From Pomacea canaliculata (lineage: Eukaryota > Mollusca > Gastropoda > Architaenioglossa > Ampullariidae), in NCBI RefSeq assembly GCF_003073045.1, contig NC_037591.1:41801883-41865882 (forward strand): 64,000 nucleotides of DNA. Reading direction: 5' to 3'. Position 1 is the stretch's first letter. The number at the start of each line of letters is the position of its first letter. Under the pieces are notes generated by a model. That model saw only the letters and a list, made by a program, of their open reading frames with translations. It had not been told where the DNA came from and ran no database searches. This document shows, one piece after another, positions 5,419 through 56,214 of this stretch. Both the position numbers and the translations under genes were made by a program.

Positions 5419-8107
5419 TTAAATTTCTTGAACAAACACAGCAATAGAGAAATACAGAGAAAGCCTTGAAATGAATGGAAATACAATAAATTTTGAGAAA
5501 CCTTTGAACTCGATTATCTTATACTCGTGCGATGACTTCCTATGATTCGTTGACATCCCAGAATCGGACAGTAGGCAGACGCACCCTGTTGTTGTTACTA
5601 TTTGGTTACATCCAGCATCCAATACTCATTGGTAGCAGGTGTCATTAGTCCGTTTGTATTCTGAGAAGGTCCGTCCATCTACCTTCTGGCATTAGAACAA
5701 AATGCAAAACATTTGGTGTAATTGTCATTCAAAGTGTGACATTTGCACTAAGTTCTAATATAAACATAACTATTTAAGTCATGTCAACAAATAGTTACCG
5801 ATTTCTCACGATTGCAACTTAAAAGATTAAATGCTAAAAACAATTAAGAAAATCGTTTAAAAATAAAGGTTTAGTGGAAGTAATATTTTCTACAAAATGT
5901 TTGTTATGTCTTAATATTCTCAGGTCAGAAGATGTTTGACAGTAAATTTAATAGTTTAATTGTTGCACCTGTTTATTTGTGTGTGTGTGTTTGCTTGTTT
6001 GTTTGTTTGGTTGGTTGGTTTGTTGTTGTTTATTCTTCACCACATCAGTAGAAGGCAATGCGTTATGGCTAGTGTTCTTTAGAAAGAAAAGTATGAAATA
6101 CATGTTATTACTCTATGCTATGAAAATAAAAGAAAGTGCTGATTTTTATTAGTTCTCGGTGCATTTGTTAAGGTTTGGACACCTTCGTCCTGCTGGGCTC
6201 TGTCACCTATAAACTACTATTGCACCAGTTCTTTCGCCTGCTTCTACTTTTTTTATTTGTGTACTGCGATGAAGGTGTCCACATTGACACTACATTATGA
6301 GTCAGAAATGTTCTCAAGGTCTCTCGGGTTGGACTCTTTAAATAACTAGGTAAACCATACTAGTACAACATACTAGCTACTCAAATCTTAATACATTCCT
6401 TTTCTTAATCCTTTATATATTTTTCCTCCGATATATTTATTAATATTCAAAAAAATTCGCACACCAATTCGTAATGTTACCTTTGTGTAAAGTACATGTT
6501 ACGTCGCTTGCAGACACGTTTAGCGTTTGCTGCAAAATTATTAAAAATCACTGGCAATCAAAGTCAGGGGCATGATACAGACAACGTTTTGAGTATCATT
6601 TTTCGTCAAGTTATCATTATTTCTTTATCTTTTATGTCAAGCATTGAAAGTACGTGTGTTTAAATTATAAGACTACAGCAAGTGGTGATACAGATGTACA
6701 TGTTACAGACACTAGAAACCACCAGCTGTGGCAAGAAAGTGTGAGTTAGGTTAAGGTGAGGTGTTAGGCTATGGTGACAAGAAGACACGTCAGCAAGTGT
6801 GTCACCAAACTTACTTTTGACGTCTTGAACACACACGTCATCTTGGAAGCAACAAGGAGACACGTCACATGGATAGCCGGTTTTGACGCACTAAAACCAA
6901 ACCAAACACATCATTAGTTGAAGTCGGTGATGAAGACATTAAAGTGTTGGACGGATGAGAGCTACACCCTGTCTAGAGGATTGCTTGTCTGGAACAAACT
7001 CTAAAGTGTTTTACTATTGTTGTAACAACCTTCATGATTTCTCTTGATTAATTTTGTCTTTTTATGTCACTCGTGTTGAAATTGTAATGTCCTGTAAGGA
7101 CACTGTCCTTCGTGCTAATAATAAACTAGAATCTTAACGATGCACATGTTGAACCACAAGGTGCATACACTAGGTCACAGTGAAGAAGATCAGATGTGCT
7201 GACATCCAAGGATCTGTACCTGCCATAAGAGAGTCACATCATTCTACAAGTTAAATACTGGAGATGCTTAAAGTGGAGGATTTCATGTTGCATCTTGCAC
7301 TTAAAAATACGGTGACTGGTGCCAAACTGACCTTCTAGTCTCAGTGTAAGGTTTTACCAAATACTAACACAAACTTAGGATGTCTCCTAGTTCCTAGATG
7401 TCCACAAGCTGTCTTTCAAATGCGGTGCTTTTCTTCTATTTGACAGATGAAATGTCCTTGTCAGCTTCAGAGGATTTATGACCTCAGTAACATTATACAC
7501 GTTCTCAATTTCTTTCTCAGTTCACTGCCCGCTGCAAGCGAGGCTCTGGATTTCTCGCGGTCTTCACTGTAGGGAGGATGTTGGACATGAAGCTGGCCAC
7601 AATGGCTAACACCACATTCGTGTGGCATCTTCGTGTTTTAGCGACATCAGGCTTTTACACCAGACATCAGCAGCGATAACAATCATTGTCTTCACATCAC
7701 TCTCCTGCTTCAAAGGTCCTCCACCACTGCGCATGCGTGTCAGATTCTCCTAGTCGCCCACCGGAAGATGAAGTATTCCGTGCAAAGCATTTTGTATTAC
7801 ACGATTATGTATACTTTCTTTTTTCAAACATTGAAACCTTTATTGAAATGCTTTCTACAGGGTCTGAGTAAGAAGGCATAACAACATTAGAGTATTTAAT
7901 ATACTTTGTAAAGCCTGTTGCTGTATCTTAATAACTGTAGTAGCAATTACAAAGTATCATAATATCTAGCTATCAAGAACCTTCTAGAAATGTTCTTACA
8001 GATTGAGCCAGACGGTGATGATGGTGATGGTGAATGTGTCTCGCTTCCAGGCTTATGAAAAGCAGCAACAAGATGACAGCTAGGTACAACCGTCTTTGTT
8101 TAGTCAT
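5419..8107 (-). CDS. secreted His-rich/ICK-like peptide precursor, gene 1
   Basis: Exon 1 (8107-8000, 36 codons) starts MTKQRRLYLAVILLLLF, a clear signal peptide, and continues with HIHHHHHHRLAQS up to a GTAAGA donor (phase 0). Exon 2 (6890-6815) follows a TTTTAG acceptor, opens directly on Cys and has C-x6-C-x4-CC-x5-C, ending in phase 1 at GTAAGT. Exon 3 (5585-5419) follows AACAACAACAG and starts with C-V-C in frame. Here the final Cys codon of other copies is a Phe codon and the stop is lost, so the frame reads 18 further codons to a TAA next to AATAAA at 5407-5417. Total about 116 residues with 7 cysteines. The product should be secreted; the cysteine pattern resembles inhibitor cystine knots, but whether it is a toxin, defence or signalling peptide cannot be told. 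The altered C-terminus may be tolerated or may mark early decay. Direct joining of exon 1 to exon 2 is inferred from matching phases. Confidence 0.68.
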
Positions 8108-8495
8108 CGTGATTTGTAGACCGCTTTGTTTAAGATAAAAAAAAAACCAATACATTATTTTCATCCAGTCAGCACTCATCAGTGTTTAATAAGGTGTTGA
8201 AAATATGGAAACGAACTTTTAGCTAGTATGCAAAACTGTTGTTCCGTCAAATCTTTAATGAAAAGGAAGTTTCAAAGTACAAAAGGATAAAATATATCTG
8301 TAAATAACTAATCCTAATAATACTAGTACCATTACACTCACATACAACGAGTTAAGCAAGAAACACACACAACTGTGCTTTTGTCTACTTGCGTTTAAAG
8401 CCAGTAACGGCGATGTTAACCTCGACAGACGTCGTCGTTAGGCTGTCGCTGTCTGTAGTGAGGGGAAGACAACTGTTAGAAACGACGTCGCTAAT

Positions 8496-8507
8496 CACGT
8501 GACGTCA
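8496..8507. promoter_or_regulatory. composite E-box/CRE upstream of gene 1
   Basis: CACGTGACGTCA combines a palindromic E-box and a full palindromic CRE sharing bases, 390 bp upstream of the ATG. It lies in a block ending GCGCGAAGCTCA that is conserved before all the genes. It would suit bHLH-zip and CREB/ATF factors; binding is inference. Confidence 0.5.
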
Positions 8508-11545: not shown

Positions 11546-13275
11546 CCGATTCGATACCCGTGTGTCGATGCTCACTTATATCATCTACCCTGGTTGGAGC
11601 CATTGGGAGTAAAGATAGCTCTTGAGCTTTCAATGCCATGGCGAACAGCAAGCAGACGACAGCTTGATATAGTTGGATTTCTGCTGTCATCGTGATTCGA
11701 ATTGTTTTGGAAATCTTAAGAAAACAGTGCTACATCATTTTAATGTTGTCAATAGATATACAGGTTAATGCAGTTCTGCGATGTGTCAGAAGGAGGTTTT
11801 TACAAAAATCTGGTAAACACTGTACGAACCTTACACTCAACTGCAGATTTTCTGACATTGTAATTGCGGCGGGAACGCTTGTTTGGGTTAGCGGGTACGT
11901 ACTGCTGACGGCGTTTAGTCTCTTTGTTTAGTGGAAAATTCTAATTGTGAACTTCCATCCTCTTCACTGAAACAACAAAGAGGAACGGACTGATTTGGCG
12001 CTAAGCTAAGGTATATGGTGTTCGCGAGGGTCAGTCAGTCCGGCTTCATAGTTATATTGTATGACATTTTCTTCAAAGGATTACGGACGATTACTTAATT
12101 TGTCATATGAGCGATTAAAAGAGAAACGAAACAAATAAAACTAAATAATCCTAATGCTGTTATTAAAAAAAGTCTAGGCACTTCAAAAGAAGTTGTACGT
12201 GGTAAAGCTATGACTGTGCGTCTAAATAGACACAAAACAACGAAAAAAAATCCAAACTATAGTTTTCTATCGACTTGCGAGTAAAGTCTTCTATATTTTA
12301 CCTCCACAGACATCTTTAACTCAATGGTCACGTGATGCCAACAAAAATGTTTTATTTTCGAGCTGCAGACGTGGTGGTTACTGAAAGATAAAAGTTCACA
12401 ACACGTAACAGAAGTTAAAGGACTATATGGGATGCAATATTTATCTTTTGACAAGGTTAAGCTGTATGGAAGATGCTATCTACCCCTTGGACGCTTGTCA
12501 TCTTTTCAAAAAATCTTTCTCCATACACAAAATTCGTGAAAAGTTATTGGTATTCATGCATCCATGTTGGAGATTACGGTAGGGAAGTGAAGAAATCATT
12601 TGCTAAAGATCCTTGTTCAAATTTCCCATTAGAACCCTTTTCTTAATTTTGGTAGGTCTGGCCAATGGCAGTTTCTGCAGGTACTCCTGCTTCATCTTCC
12701 CTTCCCCACAAAAGACAAACAGTGTGCTTGCTATCACACCAGCCTCAGCTCCCTGTCACAGATGGTCCTCCAGTTAGGGGGTTTAGCATTCAGTGAATTC
12801 TTCTAAGAGAATCACGATAGTTTTACATGAGGACACCTTTAATTTTAATTTTGTTTTTACCTAAAGTACTTGCCAAATGGTCTATCACTCAACTTTAACA
12901 GTATATTGCAGGCGATAATTCCAAATAGAGTTTTTAAAAACTATCTTTAACCTTCGTCTTTTAGCTTTGTACGATTACTGTTGCTCAGGTGATGAGAGTG
13001 AAGGGGTGGGGGTGTGACTGGAAAGGCGGAACTTGAATTCAGTCAAACGTGACTGGCTGATGACACTGTGGTGTTATTTTCTGTCATTCAACCAGCCTCT
13101 CAAACAAGTATTTGAGAATTATGTATGTCTTTCCTTGCTGAGTAATTTTGTATTTTGTCAGACACATAGACATCAGTCACAAAAGTCACACAAGACCAGT
13201 TTGCTTTTAGTGGAATTTATTTTATTGTTGAATTTCTTGAACAAACACAGCAATAGAGAAACACAGAGAAAGCCT

Positions 13276-15903
13276 TTAAATGCATGGAAATACAATAAAT
13301 TTAGATACAACTTTGAACTCGGTGATCTTATACTCGTTCGATGACTTCCTATTATTAGTTGACATCACAGAATCGGACAGTAGGCAGACGCACCCTGTTG
13401 TTGTTACTGTTGGGTACATCCAGCATCCAATACTCATTGGTAGCAGGTGAAATTAGTCCGTTTGTATTCTCAGAAGGTCCGTCCATCTACCCTCTGGCGT
13501 GAGAACAAAATGCAAAACATTTGGTGTAATTGTCATTCAAAGTGTGACATTTGCACTAATTTCTAATATAAACATAACTATTTAAGTCATGTCAACAAAT
13601 AGTTACCGATTTCTCACGATTACAACTTAAAAGTTTTAATGCTGTAAACAACTCAGAAAATCGTTTAAAAATAAAGTTGAGTGGAAGTAATATTTTCTAC
13701 AAAATGTTTGTAATGTCTTAATATTCTCAGGTCAGGAGATGTCACTCAGTAAATTTAATAGTTTAATTGTTGCACCTGTTTATTTGTGTGTTTGTGTGTT
13801 TGCTTGTTTGTTTGTTTGTTTTTTTTTTTGGCTGGTGGGTTTGTTTTTTTTTTTCACCACATCAGTGGAAGGCAATGCGTTATGGCTAGTGTTCTTTAGA
13901 AAGAAAAGTATGAGATACATGGTCTTACTCGAGGCTATGAAAATAAAAGAAAGTGCTGATTTTTATCAGTTTTCAGTGCATTCGTTAAGGTTTGGACACC
14001 TTCGTGCTGCTGGGCTCTGTCACCTATAAACTACTATTGGACCAGTTCTTTCGCCTGCTTCTACTTTTTTTATTTGTGTACTGCGATGAAGGTGTCAACA
14101 TTGACACTACATTATGAGTCAGAAATGTTTTCAAGGTCTCTCGGGCTGGACTCTTGAAATAACTAGGTAAACCATAATAGTACAACATACTAGCTACTCA
14201 AATCTTAATACATTCCTTTTCTTAATCCTTTATATATTATTCCTCCGATATATTTATTAATATTCAAAAAAAATTCGCACACAAATTCGTAATGTTACCT
14301 TGGTTTAGAGTAAATGTTACGTCGCTTGCAGACACGTTTAGCGCTTGCTGCAAAATTATGAAAAATCACTGGCAATCAAAGTCAGGGGCATCATACCGAC
14401 AACGTTTTGACTCTCATTGTTCGTCAAGTTATCATTATTTCTTTATCTTTTATATCAAGCCTTGAAAGTAGGCGTGTTTAAAATATAAGACTACAGCGAG
14501 TGGTGATACAGGTGTACATGTTACAGACACTAGAAACCACCAGCTGTGGCAAGAAAGTGCGAGTTAGGTGTAAGGTGAGGTGTTTAGCTATGGTGACAAG
14601 AAGACACGTCAGCAAGTGTGTCACCAAACATACTGAGGTCTGGAGTACACACGTCATCTTGGAAGCAACAAGGAGACACGTCACATGGGTAGCCGGTTTT
14701 GACGCACTGAAACCGAACCAAACACATCATTAGTTGACGTCGGTGATGAAGACATTAAAGTGTTGCACGGATGAGAGCTACACCCTGCCTAGAGGATTGC
14801 TTGTCTGGAAAAGACTCTATGGTGTTGTACTCTTATTGTAACAACTTTCATGATTTCTCTTGATTAATTTTGTCTTTTTACGTCACTCGTGTTGAAATTG
14901 TAATGTCCTGTAAGGAAACTGTCCTTCGTGCTAATAATAAACTAGAATCTTAACGATGCACATGTTAAACCACAATGTGCATACACTAGCTCACAGTGAA
15001 GAAGATCAGATGTGCTGACATCCAAGGATCTGTATCTTCCATAAGAGAGTCACATCATCCTACAAGTGAGATACTAGAGCTGCTGAAAGTTTAGAATTTC
15101 AAAACTTAAAAATATGGGTGACTGGTCCCCAAACTGACCTTCTAGTCTCAGTGTAAGGTTTTACCAAATACTAACACAAACTTAGGATGTCTCCTAGTTC
15201 CTAGTTCCTAGATGTCCACAAGTTGTCTTTCAAATGCGGTGCTTTTCTTCTATTTGTCAGCTTCAGAGGATTTATGACCTCAGTAACATTATACACGTTC
15301 TCAATTTCTTTCTCAGTTCACTGCCCGCTGCAAGCGAGGCTCTGGATTTCTCGCGGTCTTCACTGTAGGGAGGATGTTTGACATGAAGCTGGCAACAATG
15401 GCTAACACCACATTCGTGTGGCATCTTCGTGTTTTAGCGACATCAGGCTTTTACACCAGACATCAGCAGCGATAACAATCATTGTCTTCACATCACTTTC
15501 CTGCTTCAAAGGTCCTCCACCACTGCGCATGCGTGTCAGATTCTCCTAGTCGCCCACCGGAAGATGAAGTATTCCGTTCAAAGCATTTTGTATTACACGA
15601 TTATGTATACTTTCTTTTTTCAAACATTGAAACCTATATTGAAATGCTTTCTACAGGGTCTGAGTAAGAAGGCATAACAACATTAGAGTATTTAATATAC
15701 TTTGTAAAGCCTGTTGCTGTATCTTAATAACTGTAGTAGCAATTACAAAGTATCATAATATCTAGCTATCAAGAACCTTCTAGAAATGTTCTTACTGATT
15801 GAGCCAGACGGTGATGATGGTGATGGTGAATGTGTCTCGCTTCCAGGCTTATGAAAAGCAGCAACAAGATGACAGCTAGGTACAACCGTCTTTGTTTAGT
15901 CAT
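13276..15903 (-). CDS. secreted His-rich/ICK-like peptide precursor, gene 2
   Basis: Exon 1 is 15903-15796 (36 codons, same signal peptide and H-I-H6 run as gene 1), exon 2 is 14706-14634, exon 3 is 13394-13276. Exon 2 is three bases shorter than in gene 1: the loop after the fifth Cys reads TPDL, and the donor is GTATGT instead of GTAAGT. Exon 3 gives C-V-C, then a 33-residue spacer, then P-C-I and TAA, so the predicted mature part has 8 cysteines, C-x6-C-x4-CC-x5-C-x5-C-x-C-x33-C. Total about 99 residues. Two AATAAA signals overlap at 13216-13226. The intron between exons 2 and 3 lacks about 760 bp found in genes 3, 5 and 7, a deletion shared with gene 1. Complete and probably functional; role unknown. 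Confidence 0.75.
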
Positions 15904-20378: not shown

Positions 20379-21716
20379 TTGTGAACTTCCGTCCTCTTCA
20401 CTGAAACAACAAAGAGGAACGGACTGATTTGGCGCTAAGCTAAGGTATAGCTTGTTAGCGAGGGTCAGTCAGTCCGGCTTCATAGTTATATTGTATGACA
20501 TTTTCTTCAAAGGATTACGGACGATTACTTAATTTGTCATATGAGCGATTAAAAGAGAAACGAAACAAATAAAACTAAATAATCCTAATGCTGTTATTTA
20601 AAAAAAGTCTAGGCACTTCAAAAGAAGTGTACGTGGTAAAGCTATGACTGTGCGTCTAAATAGACACAAACAACGAAAAAAAATCCAACTATAGTTTTCT
20701 ATCGACTTGCGAGTAAAGTCTTCTATATTTACCTCCACAGACATCTTTAACTCAATGGTCACGTGATGCCAACAAAAATGTTTTATTTTCGAGCTGCAGA
20801 CGTGGTGGTTACTGAAAGATAAAAGTTCACAACACGTAACAGAAGTTAAAGGACTATATTGGGATGCAATATTTATCTTTTGACAAGGTTAAGCTGTATG
20901 GAAGATGCTATCTACCCCTTGACGCTTGTCATCTTTTCGAAAAAATCTTTCTCCATACACAAAATTCGTGAAAAGTTATTGGTATTCATGCATCCATGTT
21001 GGAGATTACGGTAGGGAAGTGAAGAAATCATTTGCTAAAGATCCTTGGTTCAAATTTCCCATTAGAACCCTTTTCTTAATTTTGGTAGGTCTGGCCAATG
21101 GCAGTTTTCTCCAGGTACTCCTGCTTCATCTTCCCTTCCCCCACAAAGACAAACAGTGTCCTTGCTATCACACCAGCCTCAGCTCCCTGTCACAGATGGT
21201 CCTCCAGTTAGGGGTTTAGCATTCAGTGAATTCTTCTAAGAGAAATCACGATAGTTTTACATGAGGACACCTTTAATTTTAATTTTGATTTTACCTAAAG
21301 TACTTGCCAAATGGTCTATCACTAAACTTTAACAGTATATTGCAGGCGATAATTCCAAATAGAGTTTTTAAAAACTATCTTTAACCTTCGTCTTTTAGCT
21401 TTGTACGATTACTGTTGCTCAGGTGATGAGAGTGAAGGGGTGGGGGTGTGACTGGAAAGGTGGAACTTGAATTCAGTCAAACGTGACTGGCTGATGACAC
21501 TGTGGTGTTATGTTCTGTCATACAACCAGCCTCTCAAACAAGTATTTGAGATTTATGATCTGCAGTATGCTTTCCCGTGCTTAGTAATTTTGTATTTTGT
21601 CAGACACACAGACATTAGTGACAAAAGTCACACAAGACCAGTTTACTTTTAGTGGAATTTATTTTATTGTTGAATTTCTTGAACAAACACAGCAATAGAG
21701 AAACACAGACAAACCT

Positions 21717-24700
21717 CTAAATGCATGCAAATACAATAAATTTAGATACAACTTTGAACTCGGTGATCTTATACTCGTGCGATGACTTCCTATTATTAGT
21801 TGACATCACAGAATCGGACAGTAGGCAGACGCACCCTGTTGTTGTTACTATTGGCTACATCCAGCATCCAATACTCATTGGTAGCAGGTGACATTAGTCC
21901 GTTTGTATTCTGAGAAGGTCCGTCCATCTACCCGCTGGCGTGAGAACAAAATGCAAAACATTTGGTGTAATTGTCATTAAAAGTGTGACATTTGCACTAA
22001 GTTCTAATATAAACATAACTATTTAAGTCATGTCAACAAATAGTTACCGATTTCTCACGATTACAAACTTAAAAGTTTTAATGCTGTAAACAACTCAGAA
22101 AATCGTTTAAAAATAAAGGTTGAGTGGAAGTAATATTTTCTACAAAATGTTTGTAATGTCTTAATATTCTCAGGTCAGGAGGTGTCTCTCAGTAAATTTA
22201 ATAGTTTAATTGTTTCACCTGTTTATTTGTGTGTTTGTGTGTTTGCTTGCTTGTTTGTTTGTTTTTTTTTTTGGCTGGTGGGTTTGTTTGTTTTTTTCAC
22301 CACATCAGAGGAAGGCAATGCGTTATGGCTAGTGTTCTTAAGAAAGAAAAGTATGAGATACACGTTATTACTCGAGGCTATGAAAATAAAAGAAAGTGCT
22401 GATTTTTATCAGTTTTCAGTGCAGTTGTTAAGGTTTGGACACCTTAATTCGTGCTGCAGGGCTCTGTCACCTATAAACTACTATTGCACCAGTTCTTTCG
22501 CCTGCTTCTACTTTTTTTTATTTGTGTACTGCGATGAAGGCGTCAACATTGACACTACATTATGAGTCAGAAATGTTCTCAAGGTCTCTAGGGCTGGACT
22601 TTTGAAAGAACTAGGTAAACCATACTAGTACAACATACTAGCTACTCAAATCTTAATACATTCCTTTTTTTAATCCTTTATATATTTTTCTTCCGATATA
22701 TTTATTAATATTCAAAAAAATTCGCACACAAATTCGTAATGTTACCTTCGTAAAATCTTCGTAAGTGAAAATTGCTTGCAGACACGTTTAGCGCTTGCTG
22801 CAAAATTATTAAAAAATCACTGGCAGTCAAAGTCAGAATGCATGTTGATGTCAGTTAGATGTTTACTATCTGTACATGCCAGTACCACAACCATCATCAC
22901 CTTAAAAACAAACCTGAGAACTGTCAGGTCAGTGGCTTATCTGTGTACATGTCTAGAGGTGTTGGATGGCTGCAACATGTAACAACGGTTTCCACAGTGA
23001 CTGAGGTGAGCCGCAGCGTGCAATGGTAGGTCAGCTCACTCTTGCTTACTTTCACCAGCCACCTCCTTCCTTTCCTGGCCTCCCTCCACAATCGTTGATA
23101 GTGTGTGGTCAGTCACGTGGTGTGTGGTCAGTCACGTGGTGTGTGGTCAGTCACGTGGTGTGTGGTCAGTCACGTGGTGTGTGGTCAGTCACATGATTTG
23201 TGGTCAGTCACATGGAAAACTTAAACGAAAAGAAGAGCCATCGGGGAGGTGATTGTGATTATTGATAGTTACGATCACATGTTGTAGACTAGAAGTCAGA
23301 GCACAGACATATGTTGTGTCTTTATTTCTGTGTTAGCAAGCAATAAAATGTCCTTCCCCCAGGAGAATAGAATGAATACTACTATGAAGGTTGGAACCTG
23401 AAAACAAAGCCAGTTCAGCAGGTTTTTTGTCTATTGTCGCTGTTGTTACAATTTGCAAATGCTTTGGTTGTACATGGTGACTGCCAGTTATTCAAGCTAT
23501 AATCCCATGTTTTCCGTGTAATGAAATTACATTTCAAATTCCGTTAATGTGCTTCTCTAAAACCATCCAAATACACAATCACATCAATAGGGGCATCATA
23601 CAGACAACGTTTTGACTCTCATTTTTCGTCAAGTTATCATTATTTCTTTATCTTTTATGTCAAGACTTGAAAGTAGGCGTGTTTAAAGTATAAGACTACA
23701 GCAAGTGGTGATACAGGTGAAAATGTTACAGACACTAGAAACCACCAGTTGTGCCAAGAAAGTGTGAGTTAGGTGTAAGGTGAGGTGTTAGGATATGGTG
23801 ACAAGAAGACACGTCAGCAAGTGTGTCACCAAACTTACTTTTGACGTCTGGAAAACACAAGTCATCTCGGGAGCAACAAGGAGACACGTCACATGGGTAG
23901 CCGGTTTTGACGCACTGAAACCGAACCAAACACATCATTAGTTGAAGTCGGTGATCAAGACATTAAAGTGTTGGACGGATGAGAGCTACACCCTGCCTAG
24001 AGGATTGCTTGTCTGGAACAGACTCTAAAGTGTTTCACTATTGTTGTAACAACCTTCATTATTTCTCTTGATTAATTTTGACTTTTTATATCACTCGTGT
24101 TGAAATTGTAATGTCCTGTAAGGAAACTGTCCTTCGTCCTTAATAATAAAGTAAAATCTTAACGATGCACATGTTGAACCACAATGTGCATACACTAGGT
24201 CACAGAGAAGAAGATCAGATGTGCTGACATCCAAGGATCTGTACCTGCCACAAGGGACTCACATCATCCTACAAGTTAAATACTGGAGCTGCTGAAAGTT
24301 TAGAATTTCATGTTGCATCTTGCACTTAAAAATATGGGCGACTGACATTCTAGTCTCAGTGTAAGGTTTTACCAAATACTAACACAAACTTAGGATGTCT
24401 CCTAGTTCCTAGATGTCCACAAGCTGTCTTTCAAATGCGGTGCTTTTCTTCTATTTGTCAGCTTCAGAAGATTTATGACCTCAGTAACATTATACACGTT
24501 CTCAATTTCTTTCTCAGTTCACTGCCCGCTGCAAGCGAGGCTCTGGATTTCTCGCGGTCTTCACTGTAGGGAGGATGTTTGACATGAAGCTGGCCACAAT
24601 GGCTAACACCACATTCTTGTGGCATCTTCGTGTTTTAGCGACACCAGGCTTTTACACCAGACATCAGCAGCGATAGCAATCAGTGTCCTTCACATCACTC

Positions 24701-25110
24701 TCTTGCTTGTAAGGTCCTCCACTACTGCGCATGCGTGCATATCTTCCCAGTCGCCCACCGGATGATGAAGTATTTTGTGCAAAACATTTTGTATTACACG
24801 ATTATGTATACTTTCTTACTTCGAACATTGAAACCTTTATTGAAATGATTTCTACAGGGTCTGAGTAAGAAGGCATAACAACATTAGAGTATTTAATATA
24901 CTTTGTAAAGCCTGTTGCTGTATCTTAATAACTTTAGTAGCAATTACAGAGTATCATGATATCTAGCTATCAAGAACCTTCTAGAAATGTGCTTACTGAT
25001 GGACTTTGAGCCAGACGGTGATGATGGTGATGGTGAATGTGTCTCGCTTCCAGTGCTATGAAAAGCAGCAACAAGACGACAGCTAGGTACAACCGTGATT
25101 GTTTAGTCAT
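21717..25110 (-). CDS. secreted His-rich/ICK-like peptide precursor, gene 3
   Basis: Exon 1 25110-24997 (38 codons; two extra codons, PS, before the donor), exon 2 23914-23839 with GTAAGT donor, exon 3 21835-21717 ending A-C-I and TAG. The exon 2 loop between Cys 4 and Cys 5 reads SRDDL and the tail FPDVK. Total about 102 residues, 8 cysteines. AATAAA is at 21658-21668. Intron 2 contains the 19-bp minisatellite at 23101-23214 that genes 1 and 2 have lost. All splice sites are canonical and the frame is intact; probably functional. The final Cys is separated from the knot by a long polar spacer, so pairing is unclear. Confidence 0.76.
23101..23214. repeat. 19-bp minisatellite in intron 2 of gene 3 (6 copies)
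   Basis: Unit GTGTGTGGTCAGTCACGTG; four copies keep the CACGTG E-box and the last two read CACATG. Copy number differs between genes: 2 in gene 4, 4 in gene 5, 8 in gene 7, 4 in gene 8, none in genes 1 and 2. Confidence 0.9.
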
Positions 25111-27490: not shown

Positions 27491-27561
27491 GTTCTACAAT
27501 ATACTTTCCAATTCTGAGGAAGTTTGTATTTTGTCAGACACATACACATTAATAACAAAAG

Positions 27562-36280: not shown

Positions 36281-36348
36281 TTCAGGATTTTATTTTCTCT
36301 TTGAATTTCTTGAACAAACAGAGCAATAGAGAAATACAGAGAAAACAT

Positions 36349-39300: not shown

Positions 39301-39653
39301 CACTGCCGCTGCAAGCGAGGCTCTGGATTTTTCGCGGTATTGACTGTAGGGAGGATGTTTGACATGAAGCTGGCCACAATGGCTAACTTTTTTAAAATGA
39401 TTTCTGCAGAGACTGCTTAAGAAGACATAAAAACATTAGAGTATTTAATATACTCTGTAAAGCCTGTTCCTGTATCTTAATAACTGTTGTAGCAATTACA
39501 GAGTCTCATCATATCTAACTATCAAGAACCTACTAGAAATGTCCTTACTGATGGAAATTGACGGAGATGGTGATGGTGGATGTTTCTTGCTTCCAGTGTT
39601 ATGAAAAGCAGCAAGCAGACGACAACTAGGTACAACCGTGTTTGCTTAGTCAT
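36349..39653 (-). CDS. secreted His-rich/ICK-like peptide precursor, gene 5
   Basis: Exon 1 39653-39549 (35 codons), exon 2 38494-38413, exon 3 36467-36349. The His run is shortest here, N-I-H4, and the following residues are LRQFPS instead of RLAQS. The signal peptide carries an extra Cys (VVVCLLLF), as in gene 7. Exon 2 keeps C-x6-C-x4-CC-x5-C and has a longer tail after the fifth Cys (ALADDVK), giving an eight-residue loop before C-V-C. Exon 3 ends Q-C-I and TAA; AATAAA is at 36289-36294. About 101 residues, 8 cysteines outside the signal peptide. Intact frame and canonical splice sites; probably functional. Confidence 0.75.
37713..37788. repeat. 19-bp minisatellite, gene 5 intron 2 (4 copies)
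   Basis: Two copies with CACGTG, one CACGTA, one CACATG. Confidence 0.88.
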
Positions 39654-41620: not shown

Positions 41621-42447
41621 TTTTGACGTCGTGAGCAACAGCGCATACGTCTTCTCGGAAGACACGTCACATGGATAGCCGGTTTTGACGCACTGAAACC
41701 GAACCAAACACATCATTAGTTGAAGTCGGTGATGAAGACATTAAAGTGTTGGACGGATTAGAGCGCAACTCTGCCTAGAGGATTGCTTGTCTGGAAAAGA
41801 CTCTAGGGTGTTTTGCACTTATTGTAACAACCTTCTTTCAATTTCTTTCTCAGTTCACTGCCCGCTGCAAGCGAGGCTCTGGATTTCTCGCGGTCTTCAC
41901 TGTAGGGAGGATGTTGGACATGAAGCTGGCCACAATGGCTAACACCACATTCTTGTGGCATCTTCGTGTTTTAGCGACACCAGACTTTTACACCAGACAT
42001 CAGCAGCGATAGCAATCAGTGTCCTTCACATCACTCTCCTGCTTGTAAGGTCCTTCACCACTGCGCATACGTGTCATATCTTCCCAGTCGCCCACCGGAA
42101 GATGAAGTATTTTGTGCAAAACATTTTGTATTACACGATTATGTATACTTTCTTACTTCGAACATTGAAACCTTTATTTAAATGATTTCTACAGGGTCTG
42201 AGTAAGAAGGCATAACAACATTAGAGTATTTAATATACTTTGTAAAGCCTGTTGCTGTATCTTAATAACTATAGTATCAATTACAGAGTATCATTATATT
42301 TAGCTATCAAGAACCTTCTAGAAATGTCCTTACTGATGGACTTTGAGCCAGACGGAGATGATGGTGATGGTGAATGTGTCTCGCTTCCAGTGTTATGAAA
42401 AGCAGCAACAAGACGACAGCTAGGTACAACCGTGATTGTTCAGTCAT
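41621..42447 (-). pseudogene. His-rich/ICK-like peptide gene 6, truncated pseudogene
   Basis: Exon 1 (42447-42334, 38 codons) is intact, with MTEQ instead of MTKQ and H-I-H5-L. Exon 2 (41692-41621) keeps acceptor and donor but has a 10-base deletion that removes both central cysteines and shifts the frame. Intron 2 beyond about 41593 and the whole of exon 3 are missing, replaced by an inverted fragment of intergenic sequence. Intron 1 is also much shorter (about 640 bp). With the damaged promoter motif this copy cannot make the normal peptide. Confidence 0.85.
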
Positions 42448-44955: not shown

Positions 44956-46360
44956 ACTCACACACACTCACACACACTCACACACTCACACACACTCACA
45001 CACACTCACATACACTCACACACACTCACACACACTCATAAACTGACCCACTTACACACACACTCACACACACACAAGAGAGAGGACGAGTACATACACA
45101 GCCGCTCTAACAATCAAACAAAGTAAAAAGAATATAAAGAGAGTGTTGAGGAAGAGAGTAAAGAGAGATGACTAGTGTGTGCAACACAAAGTTGCTAATT
45201 TTTCTCCATCTTCTGCAGTGAAAGACTCAAACGCCAACAACCTGCTTCCTGTGGAACAAGTTCCTTGTGCTGCAACACTTGCTTTGAGACATTTGAAGAG
45301 GTCAGTAGACAGATTGCTTGGCTTCCCTTGTTTATCTTGAGTTCCACTTTTTATAGTGTGACACTATGTTGATATCTGGTGTGTGTTTAGTTTGACATTT
45401 TAGCACTATCTAACGGTAAATGGTTTCTATAAAGTATCCATAGGCTATACAACAGTCTACTTGTTTTATTTACCAACATCTAAGAGGAATGGTTCACGGT
45501 AATCAGCAATGATCGACGTGGTAGTTTCTTTACATGATGACAATAGAGGTTGACATTAATCGTTTGCTCTTACATGATTTCGAATGATGACTGGGTATTT
45601 TGTGTTTCTTGACACAGATGCTATTTAAATATATTTTAAACACTGTAAAGGAAGTGTACGTGGTACAGCGATGGCTAAGTGGACATGGACACAAACAAAG
45701 GAGAAAAAAACCCAGACATGTATTTTTCTTTCGACTTGCGCCAAATGACTTCGATATTTACCTCGAAAGAGACTTTAGGTCACCTGCTCTCCTTCTGAGG
45801 TGTCGAGAGCCTAATTATAAAAAAAAGACGCCACTGGTCACGTGATACCAACAAATTTACAGCAATTTGTTGTGTTTGTTATCACACCAGCCTTAGCTCC
45901 TTGTCAAGGATGTTCCTCCAGTTAGCACTTTAGCAGTCAGTGAACGCTTCTAACAGAAATCACGATAGTTTTACCTGAGGACACCTTTAATATTAATTTC
46001 TTTTTACCTCAACTGCTTGCCAAAGTATATTGCAGGCTATAATTCCAAATAGAGTTTTGGTCCTCAATATTTTACTAAACCATCATTAACATTCATCTTT
46101 TAGCTTTGAACGATTTCTGTTGCTCAGGTGATAAGAGTGAGGAGGTGGGGGGGGGTGTGACTGGAAAGGCGGAACTTGAATTCAGTCAAACGTGACTGGC
46201 TGATGACACTGTGGTGTTATGTTCTGTCATACAACCAGCCTCTCAAACAAATTTTTGAGATTTATGTTCTGCAGTATGTCTTTCTCGTTCTGAGTAATTT
46301 TGAATTTTGTCAGACACACAGACATTAGTCACAAAAGTCACACAAGACCAGTTTGCTGTT
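42850..46360. other. intergenic region between genes 6 and 7
   Basis: Contains the E-box/TATA pair (43918-43938), empty sites for the MITEs found in other units (43711-43718 and 44469-44476), a long CA-rich microsatellite and, from about 45640, sequence like that at 12190 and 20630. No protein gene is seen. The open frame at 44729-45046 is mostly CA-repeat translation. Confidence 0.55.
44882..45075. repeat. (CA)n and (CACACT)n compound microsatellite
   Basis: Pure CA to about 44948, then CACACT/CACACACT variants to about 45075. Confidence 0.95.
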
Positions 46361-46427
46361 AGTGGAATTTATTTTATTGTTGAATTTCTTGAACAAACAC
46401 AGCAATTGAGAAATACAGAAAAATTCT

Positions 46428-49400
46428 TTAAATGCATGAAAATACAATAAATTTAGAGACACCCTTGAAATCAGTGATCTTATACTCGTGCGATGACTTC
46501 CTATTATTAGTTGACATCCCAGAATCGGACAGTAGGCAGACGCACCCTGTTGTTGTTACTATTGGGTACATCCAGCATCCAATACTCATTGGTAGCAGGT
46601 GACATTAGTCCGTTTGTATTCTGAGAAGGTCCGTCCATCTACCTTCTGGCGTGAGAACAAAATGCAAAACATTTGGTGTAATTGTCATTCAAAGTGTGAC
46701 ATTTGCACTAAGTTCTAATATAAACATAACTAGTTAAGTCTTGTCAACAAATAGTTACCGATTTCTCACGATTACAACTTAAAAGTTTTAATGCTGTAAA
46801 CAACTCAGAAAATCGTTTAAAAATAAAGGTTGAGTGGAAGTAATATTTTCTACAAAATGTTTGTAATGTCTTAATGTTCTCAGGTCAGTTGATGTCTCTC
46901 AGTAAATTTAATAGTTTAATTGTTGCACCTGTTTATTTGTGTGTGTGTGTTTGCTTGTTTGTTTGTTTGGCTGGTTGGTTTGTTGTGGGTTTTTTTCACC
47001 ACATCAGTGGAAGGCAATGCGTTGTGGCTAGTGTTCCTTAGAAAGAAAAGTATGAGATACATGTTATTACTCGAGGCTATGAAAATAAAAGAAAGTGCTG
47101 ATTTTTATCAGTTTTCAGTGCATTTGTTAAGGTTTAGACACCTTCGTGCTGATGGGCTCTGTCACCTATAAACGACTATTGCACCAGTTCTTTCGCCTGC
47201 TTCTACTTTGTTTATTTGTGTACTGCGATGAAGGCGTCAACATTGACACTACATTATGAGTCAGAAATGTTCTCAAGGTCTCTCGGGCTGGACTTTTGAA
47301 AGAACTAGGTAAACCATACTAGTACAACATACTAGCTACTCAAATCTTAATACATTCCTTTTCTTAATCGTTTATATATTTTTCTTACGATATATTTATT
47401 AATATTCACAAAAATTCGCACACAAATTCGTAATGTTACCTTGGTGTAATCTTCATGGAACGTCGCTTGCAGACACGTTTAGCTTTTGCTGCAAAATTAT
47501 TAAAAAAATCACTGGCAGTCAAAGTAAGAAAGTATGTTGATGTGAGTTAGATGTCAACTATCTGCTCATGCTCGCACCACAATATTTAGCATCTTAAAAA
47601 AAAATAAAAAGTGTCAGGTCAGTGGCTTATCTGTGTACATGACTAGAGGTGTTGGATGGCTGCAACATGTAACAACGGTTTCCACAGTGACTGAGGTGAG
47701 CCGCAGCGTGCAATGGTAGGTCAGCTCACTCTTGCTTACTTTCACCAGCCACCTCCTTCCTTTCCTGGCCTCCCTCCACAATCGTTGATAGTGTGTGGTC
47801 AGTCACGTGGTGTGTGGTCAGTCACGTGGTGTGTGGTCAGTCACGTGGTGTGTGGTCAGTCAAATGGTGTGTGGTCAGTCACGTGGTGTGTGGTCAGTCA
47901 CGTGGTGTGTGGTCAGTCACGTGGTTTGTGGTCAGTCACATGGAAAACTAAAACGAAAAGAAGAGCCATCGGGGAGGTGATTATTGACTATTGATAGTTA
48001 CGATCACATGTTGTAGACTAGAAGTCAGAGCACAGACATATGTTGTGTCTTTATTTCTGTGTTAGTAGAATGAATACTACTATGAAGGTTGGAACCTGGA
48101 AACAAAGCCTGTTCAGCAGGTTTTTTTCTATTGTCGCTGTTGTTACAATTTGAAAATGCTTTGGTTGTACATGGTGACTGCCAGTTATTCCAAGCTAAAA
48201 GCCATGGGGATGTTTTCCGTTTAATGAAATTACCGTGTGCGGACGTTTTGCCGACCGGAGTCGGACGTTTCGCCGCATTATGAGAAATGTGTGAGCAAAC
48301 GGTTCACATGAGGAGGGATAATGAGAGAGATAGTTCCCTGATACATTGATACAGTGGCGAGAGAAATGTGTGAGCTAAGGGGCGTCCCACACTTGACTTC
48401 GGCTAAAGGTCCCGCGTGAAATGCCGAATGAAGTGCCCCGCGCCGAAACGTCCGTGTACCGAAATTACATTTCAAATTCCGTTTAATGTGTTTCTCTAAA
48501 ACCATCCAGATGCACAATCACATCAATAGGGGCATGATACAGACAACGTTTTGACTCTCATTTTTCGTCAAGTTATCATTATTTCTTTATCTTTTATGTC
48601 AAGACTTGAAAGTAGGCGTGTTTAAAATATAAGACTACAGCGAGTGGTGATACAGGTGAAAATGTTACAGACACCAGAAGGCATACAGGTGTGACAAGAA
48701 AGTGAGTCAGGTGTAAGGTGAGGTGTTACGCTATGGTGACAAGAAGACACGTCAGCAAGTGTGTCACAAACTTACTTTTGACGTCGTGAGCAACAGCACA
48801 CACGTCATCTTGGAAGCAACAAGGAGACACGTCACATGGGTAGCCGGTTTTGACGCACTGAAACCGAACCAAACACATCATTAGTTGACGTCGGTGATGA
48901 AGACATTAAAGTGTTGGACGGATTAGAGCTACACCCTGCCTAGAGGATTGCTTGTCTGGAACAGACTCTAAAGTGTTTTACTATTGTTGTAACAACCTTC
49001 ATGATTTCTCTTGATTAATTTTGTCTTTTTATGTCACTCGTGTTGAAATTGTAATGTCCTGTAAGGACACTGTCCTTCGTCCTAATAATAAACTAATAAA
49101 CTAAAATCTTAACGATGCACACGTTGAACCACAATGTGCATACACAGATGTGCTGACATCCAAGGATCTGTACCTGCCATAAGAGAGTCACATCATCCTG
49201 CAAGTGAGATACTAGAGATGCTGAAAGTTTAGAATTTCATGTTGCATCTTGCGCTTAAAAATATGGGTGACTGGTGCTAAACTGACCTTCTAGTCTCAGT
49301 GTAAGGTTTTACCAAATACTAACACAAACTTAGGATGTCTCCTAGTTCCTAGATGTCCACAAGTTGTCTTTCAATGGCTGTGGTTTTCTTCTATTTGACA

Positions 49401-49995
49401 GATGGAATGTCCTTGTCAGCTTCAGAGGATTTATGACCTCAGTAACATTATACACGTTTGAAAATGCTCTTCTTAAATGTTAATTTGAAGAGTAAATTAT
49501 ACTTCAGTAATATGTGGATAATGGTGGTCACGGATGAGTCACAAAGCATACATGTTGAGGGAAAGTTGCGTGGCTGTTGGGATGTTACTCCGGTTACTGC
49601 GGTTTGGGATCAGAAATTGTTTTCCATGGACTTCTTTCTCTGTTCACTGCCCGCTGCAAGCAAAGCTGTGGATTTCTCGATGTCTTTACTGTAGGGATGA
49701 TGTTTGACATGAAGCTGACCTCAATGGCTAACCTTTTTCCAATGATTTCTACAGAGACTGCTTAAGAAGATATAACATTAGATTATTTAATATACTTTGT
49801 AAAGACTGTTGCTGTATCTTAATAACTATAGTAGCAACTAAGGAATCTCATTATATCTAGTTATCAAGAACCTTCTAGAAATGTCCTTACTGATTGAGCC
49901 AGACGGTGATGGTGATGGTGGATGTGTCTCGCTTCCAGTGTTATGAAAAGCAGCAAACAGACGACAGCTAGGTACAACCGTGTTTGTTTAGTCAT
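46428..49995 (-). CDS. secreted His-rich/ICK-like peptide precursor, gene 7
   Basis: Exon 1 49995-49891 (35 codons, H-I-H5), exon 2 48857-48776, exon 3 46546-46428 ending S-C-I and TAA; AATAAA at 46368-46378. The loop after the fifth Cys is AVAHDVK, eight residues before C-V-C with the split codon, as in gene 5. About 101 residues, 8 cysteines outside the signal peptide. The extra signal-peptide Cys and equal exon lengths link it to gene 5, whereas its upstream region resembles that of genes 1 and 2, which suggests recombination between units. Intron 2 holds a MITE and the largest minisatellite. Intact and probably functional. Confidence 0.75.
47791..47942. repeat. 19-bp minisatellite, gene 7 intron 2 (8 copies)
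   Basis: The longest version: six copies with CACGTG, one CAAATG, one CACATG. Confidence 0.9.
48234..48460. mobile_element. MITE with GGACGTTTCGGCG-type ends in gene 7 intron 2
   Basis: Ends GTGTGCGGACGTTTTGCCG and, on the minus strand, GTACACGGACGTTTCGGCG. Target duplication GAAATTAC at 48226-48233 and 48461-48468; single unfilled copies are at 23523-23530 (gene 3) and 38096-38103 (gene 5). Insertion is therefore recent and specific to this unit. No coding capacity; superfamily undetermined, although the 8-bp duplication suggests hAT. Confidence 0.85.
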
Positions 49996-50392
49996 CGTGA
50001 TTGGTAGACCGCTTGGTTTAAGATCTCTTTAGAAAAAGTAATCACATTACATTATTTTCATCTTATCAGTACTATCAACGTTAAATAAGGTATGGAAAAT
50101 GTGGAAAAGAACTTTTACCTAGTATGGAAAACTGTTGTTGAGTCAAAATCTTCAGTGAAACGTAGGGTTCAAAGTACAAAAATATAAAATATATCTGTAA
50201 ATAAATAATCCTAATAATACTAGTACCATTACACTCACATACAACTAGTTATACAAGAAACACACACAACTGTGCTTTTGTCTACTTGCGTTTAAAGTCA
50301 GTAACGGCGATGTTAACCTCGACAGACGTCGTCATTAGATTCTCACTGTCTGTAGTGTGGGGAAGACAACTGTTAGAAACGACGTCGCTAAT

Positions 50393-50404
50393 CACGTGAC
50401 GTCG
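50393..50404. promoter_or_regulatory. E-box/CRE upstream of gene 7 (one change)
   Basis: CACGTGACGTCG: E-box intact, last base of the CRE changed. Confidence 0.45.
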
Positions 50405-51513: not shown

Positions 51514-51514
51514 A

Positions 51515-52750
51515 GTATACGGTAGTGACGCGTAAGTTGTTTGAAGAATACATTCCATTTACTCAACTTTTAAAACATTATTTAACTAAAGCCACTTAGA
51601 TAATAATCGGAGAAAGTCTTTCAAATAATAGACTAATAGACTGGAGAAATAGCAGAGGATCATGAAACCGATCAAGTAGAAAGGATATTAGTCTGGTTTA
51701 TACATTGGGAATGTAAGTTGCAGTAGTGGCCAGAAAAAATTGAAATCAAAGATTTTGAAATTCATATTTATGTCTGTCTCAGGAAGTATGTATATTATTG
51801 TAGATGAAAGTACGAATGACAAGTATGCCTGGTGTGTGTGTGTGTTTGTGAATGAGAAAGTGAGACAGAGTGTTACAGAACAAAGGAAACAATACTTTAG
51901 TATGTTTTACACTTTTGTAAGTGCATTTTATATGGGGATGCTTAGGACACTTGGCAAGCACAGCGATGTCATAAATGATATTTTACTACACATTGTTTAT
52001 TTTTTGGCTTCAAAACCAAAACGGGTAAAGCGTGATGCTGTGTGTAGTGTTCCCACTGTTGATGTTCACTCCTTGCCAGTTTATTATATACTTGTAGATC
52101 AATGAATTTCTTACAGTCAACATAGAAGGGTACTAAAAATATAAATAGTGGAAAATCCTGATGTTGGTCTTATACGGTAGATACTACTCGTGATGGGTAA
52201 GCCTCTTATGTTTTTTTTCAGGGGGTAGGTATGGTATTGTCATGGAGAATTTTGGGAATTAAAGAAGCATGTGAACTTCACCTAAAAAAAAAGAAAAGTA
52301 AAAGAAAGGAATTCACAACTAACTTAACAAGATCTGACTGTGAAGACAAACGTTATTTGTTTCAAGAACGCGAGATTGTACGAGGTAACCATACCAATGA
52401 TAAATAATCTAGAATTCGATTTCGCGAATACTTTTTTGTTTTTGCTTTTTTTTTCTTTGTTTTTTAGGAACTGTCTTAAAACTCTCCCTGTTGAGTTTGA
52501 ACGATTCGCTGGGACGCGATGAGAGTGACGGGTGGGTCAGGCTGGGTTGTGGTAGGCGAATCCAATCAGTCACTGACTGGCTAATGAGACTGTGTTGTTG
52601 TTTTCTGTGTCTACAGGAGTTTGTCATTCAACCAGCAATACAAGAAAAACTTGAATTTTTTTTTTTAATGTTCCACAACATGCTTCCCAATTTTGAGAAA
52701 GTTTGTATTTTGTCACACACATACACATTAATGACAAAAGTCGCAGAAAA
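51515..52750. other. unique region and 3' flank of gene 8
   Basis: Holds an open frame of 121 codons at 51740-52105 (plus) with IIVDESTND in it. This faintly recalls the DES/DET motif of hAT-like transposases but is too weak to assign. From about 52480 the sequence is a diverged form of the array 3' flank. Confidence 0.3.
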
Positions 52751-52890
52751 ACAGTTTGCTTTCAATGGAATTTAATATTTTCTTTAATTCTTTGAACGTA
52801 CAGAACACTTGATAAATACAGTGAAAATCCCTCAATGCATACATTTGCAGACACCTTTGAACTCGGTGATCTTTATACTCGTGCGATTCG

Positions 52891-55800
52891 TTAACATCCC
52901 AAACTCGGACAGTAGGCAGACCACCCTGTTGTTGTTACTATTTGGGTACATCGAGCATCCCATGCTAGTTTCCTTCAGGCGACATCATTCACTTGTTATT
53001 CTGTCAATGTCGCGGAGGCTGTTGGTTTGAGAGCAAAATTATTTATATATTCAACATATTGTTACCGATTATTTACGATCGCAATTTAAAAGTGTCATTG
53101 CTGTAATCGTTATCAAACAAATGTTAAGTACAAGCCAACGGGACACAAGACCCACCACTGACCGTGTTCTGGGATCACATGGGCAACAACACAATAGAAT
53201 GTGCCAGTGCCATGTACAAGACTTCAGATAGTACCAGACAATCGGCAACTAGAGGGCAGCAGTTGTACCCACCCACAACAGACGAGATTGTTTTCAGTTC
53301 TTTCGCCTGCTTCGATATATATATATATTTTTTTATTTGGTTAAGCTGGTGAAGGCGTCCACATTGACACTACATTATGAGTCAGACACATGTTCTCAAG
53401 GTCTCTCTGGCTAAACTTTTAACTAGGTAACCCATACTAATACAACATACTAGCTACTAAAATCTTAATACATTTCTTTTATTATCACTTTATATATTTT
53501 TGTCCCGGATATACTTATTAATATTAACAAAAATGCGCAGAGAAAAAATCTAATGTTACCTCTATTAGTTGTTAATCAAACATCACTTGCAGACGCGTTG
53601 TGGGTTTGCTGTAAAATTTAAAAAAATCACTGGCAATCAAAGTCAGAAAGCATGTTGATGCGAGTTAGATGTCCACTATCTGTACATGCAGCACCACAAC
53701 CATTAGCACTTTACAAATAAAACTGAGAACTGTCAGGTCAGTGGCCTATCTGTGTACATGTCTAGAGGTGTTGATGGCTGCAACATGTAACAACGGTTTC
53801 CACAGTGGCTGAGGTGAGCCGCAGCGTGCAATGGTAGGTCAGCTCACTCTTGCTTACTTTCACCAGCCACCTCCTTCCTTTCCTGGCCTCCCTCCACAAT
53901 CGTTTATAGTGTGTGGTCAGTCACGTGGTGTGGTCAGTCACGTGGTGTGTGGTCAGTCACGTGGTGTGTGGTCAGTCTCATGGTTAAAACTAAAACGTTT
54001 ATGTAAGTTTGGGCAAAAGAGGAGGAGGTGATTGTGACTATTGATAGATACCGATCACATGTTGCAGACTAGAAGTCAGAGAAGTTTTCGCAGGAATTTG
54101 GCCACGTATGTTGTGTCCTTACTTCTGTCAGCAGGCAAAGAACAAGTCTTTCACCCGTAGACCAGAACGAATACTACTATGAAGGTTGCTACTTGGAAAC
54201 AAAGCCTGTTAAGCAGGTTTTTTCTATTGTCGGTTTTGTTATAATTTACAACTAATATGGCTGTAAATGGTGACTGCCAGTTATTCAAAGCTATAATCAC
54301 ATGGGAATGTTTTCCGTTTAATGTGCTTGTCTAAAACCATCCAGGAGACGAGGATCTGTGTCTCTACAATGTCTAGAGTTGTGTCGGAGATAAAGAGCGA
54401 GAGGACTATGGCGGATACACAATCACATAAATAGGGGCATCATACAGACACAGACAATAGACAGTGAGGTACATTTCAGTGTAAAACGATGCAAAATAAA
54501 CCTGCTGTAAGATTGAAGATATTTGCGTGTATTCTACAAACTTATACTTGTCACAAACATTAAAATTTTGTGTTGTTTTAATTGTTGTTGTTTTGTCTCA
54601 AGTTATCATTATTTCTTTTTCTTTTCTGTCAAGCCGTGAAAGTACGCGTGTTTAAAATATAAGACTACAGCGACTGGTGATACAGATGTACATGTTACAG
54701 ACACCAGGTGTGACAAGAAAGTGGGAGTTAGGTGTCAGGTGAGGTGTTCAGCTATCGTGACACGAAGAGACATCAGTAAGTGTGTATCCAAACTTACACA
54801 TAGATGTAACATAGTCGCACTTGTCGCTGACTTTGCAACAAGGAATGTTGTTACACGGAGCGAAGGTCCTGGCGCACTGAAACCGAACCAAAGACATCAT
54901 TAGTTGAAGTCGGTGATGAAGACGAATGAGAGCACAATCTCGCCTAGCGGAACAGACTCTATGGTGTTTTTACGATTCTTGTAACAACCTTCATGATTTA
55001 TCTTGATTAATACTTTTTTTCTATATCACTCGTGTTGAAATTGTCATGTCCACCAAGGAAAATGTTCTTCTTCCTAATAATAAACAAAAATCTTAACAAT
55101 GCACATGTAAAACCACAATGTACATACACCAGCTCACAGTGAAGATCTCATGTGCTGACATCCAAGGATCTGTACCTGCCATAAGGGAGTCACATCATCC
55201 TACAAGTGAAATACTGGAGCTGCTTAAAGTGGAGGATTTCATGTTGCATCTTGCACTCAAAAATACGGGTGACTGGTGCCAAACTAACCTTCTAGTCACA
55301 CTGTAAGGTTTTACATAATACTAACACAAAATTGGGATGTCCACTAGTTGTCTATCAAAGTCTGTTGTTTTCTTCTATTTGACAGATTGAATGTCCTTGC
55401 CAGCTTCAGTGGATTTTATGCCCTCAGTAACATTATACACAATCTCAATTTGTAAATGTTCTTCTTAGTTCAAAATGTTGATATGAAGATGAAGTTACAC
55501 ACCAGTAACAGTGGGATAATAGTGGTCACGGATGAGTGACAAAGCAAACATGTTGAGTAAAAGTTGGGATGTTTCTCCGGATACTGCGGTTTGGGATCAG
55601 ACTTTGCTTTTCATGTACTTATTTCTCAGTTCACTGCCCGCTGCAAGCGAGGCTCTGGATTTCTCGCGGTCTTCACTGTAGGGAGGATGTTGGACATGAG
55701 CTGGCAGAAGCAATGGCTACACACATTCTTGTGGCATCTTCGTGTTTCAGCGACACCAGGCCTTTTACACCAGACATCAGCAGCGATAGCAATCAGTGTC

Positions 55801-56214
55801 CTTCACATCACTCTCCTGCTTCTAAGATCTTCCACCACTGCGCATGCGTGTCAGATTCTCCCAGTTGCCCACCGTACTCAGTGCAAAACATTTTGTATTT
55901 TACGATTATGTATACTTTCTGACTTCGAAGTTTGAAAACTTTTTTGAAATGATTTCTACAGAGACTGCTTAAGAAGGCATAACAACATTAGAGTATTTAA
56001 TATACTTTGTAAAGCCTGTTGCTGTATCTTAATAACTGTAGTAGAAACTACAGAGTATCATCATATCTGGCTATCAAGAACCTTCTAGAAATGTTCTTAC
56101 TGATCGACTTTGAGCCAGACGGTGATGATGGTGATGGTGAATATGTCTCGCTTCCAGTGTTATGAAAAGCAGCAACAAGACGACAGCTAGGTACAACTGT
56201 GTTTGTTTAGTCAT
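52891..56214 (-). CDS. secreted His-rich/ICK-like peptide precursor, gene 8 (divergent, shortened)
   Basis: Exon 1 56214-56101 (38 codons, H-I-H6, RS before the donor), exon 2 54876-54798, exon 3 52925-52891. Exon 2 is the second highly divergent version: loops ARTFAP, NNIP, KVSDK and DYVTSM around C-x6-C-x4-CC-x5-C. Exon 3 has a one-base deletion near its start, so C-V-C is lost and the frame instead gives C-P-S-L-G-C and TAA. About 75 residues, 7 cysteines. This short ending may be a working variant: the same C-x4-C words exist out of frame in several other copies. Or it may be a frameshift in a dying gene. Its E-box is also mutated. It is the outermost copy of the array. Confidence 0.5.
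53909..53982. repeat. 19-bp minisatellite, gene 8 intron 2 (4 copies)
   Basis: One unit is shortened by two bases; the last reads CTCATG instead of CACGTG. Confidence 0.88.

Follow-up and report, generated by a model that had tools for sequence, protein, structure and literature searches.

What use does a snail make of peptide genes in which the active part is much more variable than the DNA around it? The pattern is best known from cone-snail venoms, and the variability of conotoxin exons has been studied mainly in venomous snails. The question is raised here by a stretch of 64,000 nucleotides (hereafter the window) of the golden apple snail Pomacea canaliculata, an animal which is not known to be venomous nor to have a venom gland. 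The window spans positions 41801883-41865882 of the chromosome-scale contig NC_037591.1 (hereafter C2) and contains a tandem array of genes for putatively secreted, cysteine-rich peptides, which a previous reading of the same DNA (the original prediction) had described as eight three-exon copies at window positions 5419..56214. We find that the peptide family is real and larger than described, that its third coding exon is not the one predicted, and that its divergence is confined to exons. The best explanation, to which we assign a probability of roughly two in three, is a rapidly diversifying array of secreted knottin-like mini-proteins with a toxin-like or defensive use; no identity with conotoxins is claimed.

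Extent of the array

All eight predicted copies of exon 1 were found on the minus strand, beginning at window positions 56214, 49995, 42447, 39653, 32974, 25110, 15903 and 8107 (copies g8 to g1), and each encodes MT(K/E)Q...LEAR followed by a His stretch. The eight copies of exon 2 are likewise present (54876, 48857, 41692, 38494, 30315, 23914, 14706 and 6890), but the predicted pattern C-x6-C-x4/5-CC-x5-C is found in seven of them and not in g6. The H-I-H6 segment is exact in five copies, while the others read H-I-H5 (g7), H-I-H5-L (g6) and N-I-H4 (g5).

The coordinates originally given cover only part of the array. A whole-genome protein search returned at least 40 scored places, at least 31 with E at most 0.0045, and among the matches listed all were on C2; 30 of the listed places at this E value lie within C2:41717488-41927380, and one, at C2:41192553, is an outlying copy about 0.5 Mb from the array. 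Profile searches of 224 kb around the window yielded 30 matches for exon 1, 24 for exon 2 and 27 for exon 3, lying on both strands. The five-cysteine pattern is kept in 20 of the 24 exon-2 matches, the others being g6, a degenerate copy at C2:41932195, and the copies at C2:41898539 (L044) and C2:41910012 (L045). The last two, whose exon 2 reads C-x4-C-x11-C (spacing judged by eye), appear to form a four-cysteine branch of a family that otherwise has six; no more than four cysteines are present in at least two copies with three exons. A short start-codon pattern proved uninformative, with 1202 forward against 1187 reverse matches.

Three coding exons and six cysteines were recovered in 17 copies, seven of them in the window and the others designated by letters (A, B, D, E, H, I, J and P among them). 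These copies were chosen for their completeness and then used for the later counts. The remaining 13 of the 30 exon-1 matches are solo first exons or frame-broken, atypical or four-cysteine copies, and g6 and the 12 other incomplete or atypical copies were left out of the divergence counts.

A corrected gene model

The NCBI uncharacterized protein LOC112556240 isoform X2 (hereafter P0001) corresponds to copy g7. It ends in ...DVK-TKAKRVCKRRSMKITPR, and its last part is encoded at window positions 47488-47440, between g7 exon 2 and the distal exon which had been predicted as coding exon 3 (acceptors at 52925, 46546, 36467, 27746, 21835, 13394 and 5585). The coding exon 3 of g7 has the acceptor TTTTGCAG and the donor GTAACA, and homologues of it, 48-52 nt long, are present in seven of the eight window copies, g7 included. 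It supplies a sixth cysteine, and the case for a knot-like family is therefore stronger than originally made; under the splicing first proposed, the cysteine domain and its continuation would contain seven cysteines in g8 and g1, and eight in g2, g3, g4, g5 and g7. P0001 also includes an upstream exon (about 50340-50287); of the eight copies in the window, g7 was the only one in which its in-frame ATG was seen. The start that is conserved, MTKQ, opens a signal sequence that looks typical by inspection.

The distal exon, here called exon 4, recurs across the array with a conserved acceptor (27 matches, some partial) and with AATAAA following within 260 nt in eight of the 12 copies examined. A stop lies ahead of the exon-3 donor in six of the 17 copies (H, P, J, g8, E and A, the donor of E being placed by inspection) and overlaps the donor in eight, while in three (I, B and g4) the frame continues past it. 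In some copies exon 4 would therefore not be translated, while in others it may lengthen the product; on the best reading it is a last exon that is untranslated for the most part. The argument drawn from exon lengths that sum to multiples of three, and from the intron phases, is circular, because any coding length counted up to the first in-frame stop must be divisible by three. As deduced from the genes, the product would be a signal peptide, a usually His-rich tail and the motif C-x6-C-x4/5-CC-x5-C-xn-C, a framework like that of inhibitor cystine knots. The observation behind the original prediction is thus partly confirmed and its interpretation partly supported: a secreted, often His-rich, knot-like tandem family is supported, but not its third exon, its copy number or the phase argument. 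As candidate roles the original prediction had named venom, antimicrobial, metal-binding and signalling peptides.

Divergence confined to exons

When g1 is compared with g8, the difference is 45% in exon 2 and 37% in exon 3, against 11% and 17% in the 40-nt flanks of these exons. Both exons were tested in 11 copy pairs, and in none of these 22 tests did a noncoding segment with comparably conserved flanks (at most 15% different, or no more different than the flanks of the exon where those exceeded 15%) reach the divergence of the exon. An earlier control without the flank condition had not separated the exons, since each pair had noncoding segments that were as divergent as the exons (in g1 versus g8, 163 of 2198 segments for exon 2); it was replaced by the flank-matched segments because this failure was ascribed to non-aligning intron stretches.

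Over 66 pairs from 12 lineages, the mean difference was 0.10 in the signal, 0.34 in the rest of exon 1 and 0.09 in the 100 nt after it; 0.33 before exon 2, 0.46 within it and 0.28 after it; and 0.31 before exon 3 and 0.59 within it. Exon 2 was above both of its flanks in 41 of the 66 pairs. Exon 4, for which 55 pairs from 11 lineages could be used, had a mean difference of 0.164, against 0.181 before and 0.201 after it.

Both 100-nt flanks were at most 20% diverged in 40 of 136 pairs, 14 of them in the CVKTGYPC clade and 26 others. In the 26 pairs, positions 1, 2 and 3 of the non-cysteine codons of exon 2 differed by 53, 56 and 51%, with flanks at 10%; where the residue was unchanged, silent differences were present in 4 of 46 cases at fourfold residues and in 5 of 38 at twofold ones. 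In the CVKTGYPC clade, position 2 differed by 13% against 5% in the flanks, and none of 113 fourfold cases showed a silent change. This pattern fits and supports diversifying selection on the amino acids. Because the pairs share copies, no P value is given.

It should be noted that some of the data weigh against diversifying selection. The pooled ratio of nonsynonymous to synonymous differences (pN/pS) by the method of Nei and Gojobori (NG86) is 0.83, or 1.04 without the cysteines, in 16 copies (copy H, whose pattern was unmatched, is missing here and included in the other 17-copy counts). In addition, third bases inside changed codons are elevated as well, an excess which would also allow block replacement, or the survival of old exons within introns homogenised by gene conversion. 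Hypermutation of the synonymous sites (NG86 pS 0.56) was considered but is not claimed, because unchanged fourfold residues change silently at the flank rate.

Conservation of cysteine codons, which is described for conotoxins in the passage cited (PMC3823881), is not claimed here: in the 26 close-flank pairs the cysteine codons differ in 29 of 130 cases, against 9 of 84 for other unchanged residues. Over the 12 lineages they agree in 363 of 396 cases, the figures being 76 of 96 for residues of twofold degeneracy and 121 of 198 for those of fourfold and sixfold degeneracy.

Fold and relation to known peptides

The six cysteines occur in the knottin order C-C-CC-C-C in all 17 copies, which had been picked for completeness. 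A low-confidence structure model has one beta hairpin in the cysteine domain, and the fold search gave no significant match, the weak structural matches being mostly knot peptides. Among 5.8 billion proteins, searched also with family alignments, P0001 was the sole relative found, in searches that require candidates to share five-residue words and that included no direct comparison with conotoxin signals. A Pfam scan of 13 members returned no conotoxin family at E at most 0.001, the only one listed being Toxin_19 (E 0.063, one member). Pfam Cys_Knot_tox (PF17486) was matched weakly: g4 with the distal exon scored 21.9 bits, below the gathering threshold of 27, and with the corrected models one of the 13 members matched (E 0.0049). 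The family is not described in Pomacea in the titles and opening lines of abstracts among the literature matches listed.

According to the passages cited, conotoxins of the O-type framework VI/VII share with the apple snail family secreted precursors with a common signal, the order C-C-CC-C-C, variable mature peptides, multigene arrays and mostly three exons (PMC4278219, PMC8152183, PMC10561478). The same passages define conotoxin superfamilies by shared signals with diverse mature peptides (PMC4278219), describe the exons of the mature toxins as more divergent (PMC10561478), and place the mature domain generally in the third of the mostly three exons (PMC8152183). The apple snail peptides, in contrast, have a short His-rich tail in place of the propeptide and a knot spread over two exons, and no sequence match with conotoxins was found; for the last two reasons we do not claim membership. 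A preprint (PMC12236594) mentions that another protein of P. canaliculata resembles two-finger conotoxins in structure.

Spider knot toxins (atracotoxins, psalmotoxin 1 and Dc1a; Pfam Cys_Knot_tox and Omega-toxin) have a similar order of cysteines and gave weak profile, sequence and structure matches. However, the one score that is comparable with a cut-off falls below it, the others being weak or not significant, and the two groups are probably of independent origin. The asteropsins are knot peptides of sponges; asteropsin G has the segment C-x6-C-x4-CC in common with the snail family (profile E 0.031), in an alignment of only 15 residues which is not significant.

Possible mechanism and roles

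On our preferred explanation, exon 1 of an intact gene would encode a 22-residue signal and a short, usually His-rich tail, exon 2 cysteines 1-5, and exon 3 cysteine 6 and a variable tail, followed by a terminal and mostly untranslated exon 4; g7 would in addition have its upstream exon. The peptide would be secreted, with removal of the signal after Ala22, and the framework, together with the weak structural matches, suggests folding as an inhibitor cystine knot with C1-C4, C2-C5 and C3-C6 bridges. The array would have grown through duplication, inversion and loss, gene conversion presumably keeping the outer gene parts alike as diversifying selection drove rapid change in the knot loops. The most likely use, with target and tissue inferred only, would be a repertoire of toxin-like or defensive ligands, each set of loops directed to a different external molecule, such as a channel, a receptor or an enzyme of predators, parasites or microbes, and through its His tail the peptide may also bind in a way that depends on metal or pH. 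This ligand role, taken as a step by itself, is tentative, and we would put it somewhat below even odds.

A bolder version, which we hold to be doubtful, is that a snail not known as venomous has independently evolved a conotoxin-like arsenal, i.e. an array of His-tailed and possibly metal-binding knots in which exon-confined diversification, perhaps by replacement of blocks of codons, yields new ligands and gene conversion holds the other gene parts uniform.

The peptides might instead serve antimicrobial or metal-binding host defence, the His tail binding zinc or copper or giving pH-dependent membrane activity and the knot acting as a scaffold that is stable in fluids such as mucus, blood or that of the eggs. 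At least four His follow residue 22 in 13 of the 17 copies (range 1 to 15, the highest in C2:41734952, L052), the C-terminal tails are cationic in several copies (e.g. g1, g7 and P), and tachystatin B, an antimicrobial knot peptide of horseshoe crabs, is among the weak structural matches. However, tachystatin B is absent from the sequence matches, and charge is not conserved in the snail family: core charge ranges from -7 (g4) to +6 (P) over the 17 copies, which makes a shared cationic antimicrobial chemistry less likely, and four of the 17 (I, g4, D and E) are negative even with both tails counted. His-richness is usual but not universal, and H, D and I retain very little of the His tail. What is conserved in the family is therefore neither a cationic character nor His, and this role appears unlikely.

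The peptides might also be reproductive (seminal, egg-coat or pheromone-like), with mate recognition or sexual conflict as the cause of their diversification; fast exon-confined change and turnover of copies are equally expected of reproductive proteins. On the other hand, no sequence feature points to reproductive tissue, and knot frameworks are better known among channel-directed and defence peptides; we consider a reproductive role rather improbable.

It appears very unlikely that the original three-exon model, with a coding distal exon (CVCLLSDSG...), gives the true product. The recurrence of this exon with its acceptor is in its favour, as is a frame that is open through it in all seven window copies, and an isoform skipping the corrected exon 3 is possible. 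Yet it is the intermediate exon that is present in P0001, and this corrected exon 3 shares the hypervariability of exon 2, the distal exon being no more divergent than the DNA on either side of it. Moreover, the distal frame of g8 differs from that of the other six window copies, and there are the six copies in which a stop precedes the exon-3 donor. That the array is mostly functionless relic or repetitive DNA, as the 13 exon-1 matches outside the complete copies and the single family protein in the database might suggest, is scarcely credible, because decay would not keep five cysteines in register, along with splice sites, in 20 of 24 exon-2 matches while the residues between them change.

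Organization of the window

All the array copies in the window lie on the minus strand; exon 3 is given here as corrected, exon 4 is the exon 3 of the original prediction, and the 3' end of every exon 4 is approximate. In g1, exon 1 (8000..8107) would encode the signal peptide and the tail HIHHHHHH, exon 2 (6815..6890) cysteines 1-5, and exon 3 (6481..6529), homologous to the exon in P0001, cysteine 6 and a basic tail; the terminal, mostly untranslated exon 4 (5395..5585) has AATAAA near 5417. Copy g2 consists of exons at 15796..15903, 14634..14706, 14299..14347 (49 nt) and 13200..13394, and g3 of exons at 24997..25110, 23839..23914, 22746..22797 and 21640..21835. In g4, exon 1 (32861..32974) is followed by an acidic and strongly diverged exon 2 (30240..30315), by the strongly diverged exon 3 (29004..29051) from which cysteine 6 comes, and by exon 4 (27555..27746). 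Copy g5, with the tail NIHHHH in exon 1 (39549..39653), continues at 38413..38494, 37361..37409 and 36275..36467.

Copy g6 is broken. Its exon 1 (42334..42447) is followed by an exon 2 (41621..41692) that is shorter than the others, the difference not being a multiple of three; this disrupts the cysteine frame. Searches covering the window copies found neither a corrected exon 3 nor an exon 4. The other seven copies look intact. In g7, the upstream exon present in P0001 (50287..50340, approximate) has the donor AA/GTAGAC and precedes exon 1 (49891..50026, with the conserved ATG at 49995), exon 2 (48776..48857), exon 3 (47440..47488, encoded in P0001) and exon 4 (46355..46546). In g8, exon 1 (56101..56214) is followed by a strongly diverged exon 2 with conserved flanks (54798..54876) and by an exon 3 (53560..53608) with an in-frame stop ahead of its donor; under the corrected model, exon 4 (52735..52925) would be untranslated here.

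Two stretches that resemble exon 1 but belong to another subfamily (11610-11744 and 19411-19545, minus strand) encode MTAEI.LYQAVVCLLFAMALKAQE... and are without a His tract; the exon-2 profile found no partner for them in the 224 kb, and a third, frame-broken stretch of this subfamily lies at C2:41786335. The second intron contains tandem repeats of 19 bp in g3 (about 23082-23273) and in g7 (about 47772-48001), and a stretch related to them in g5 (about 37675-37828). An open reading frame at 63255-63644 on the plus strand contains a hAT transposase dimerisation domain (Dimer_Tnp_hAT, E 7.5e-11).

Concluding remarks

How the mature exons of conotoxins become so variable is described as unresolved in the passage cited (PMC10561478). 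A compact array in a distant and easily kept snail, with its contrast between exons and introns, could help to separate selection, block substitution and gene conversion outside the context of venom. The array also adds to the biology of a major invasive species a family of peptides, possibly with natural His tags, of which one database protein was found.
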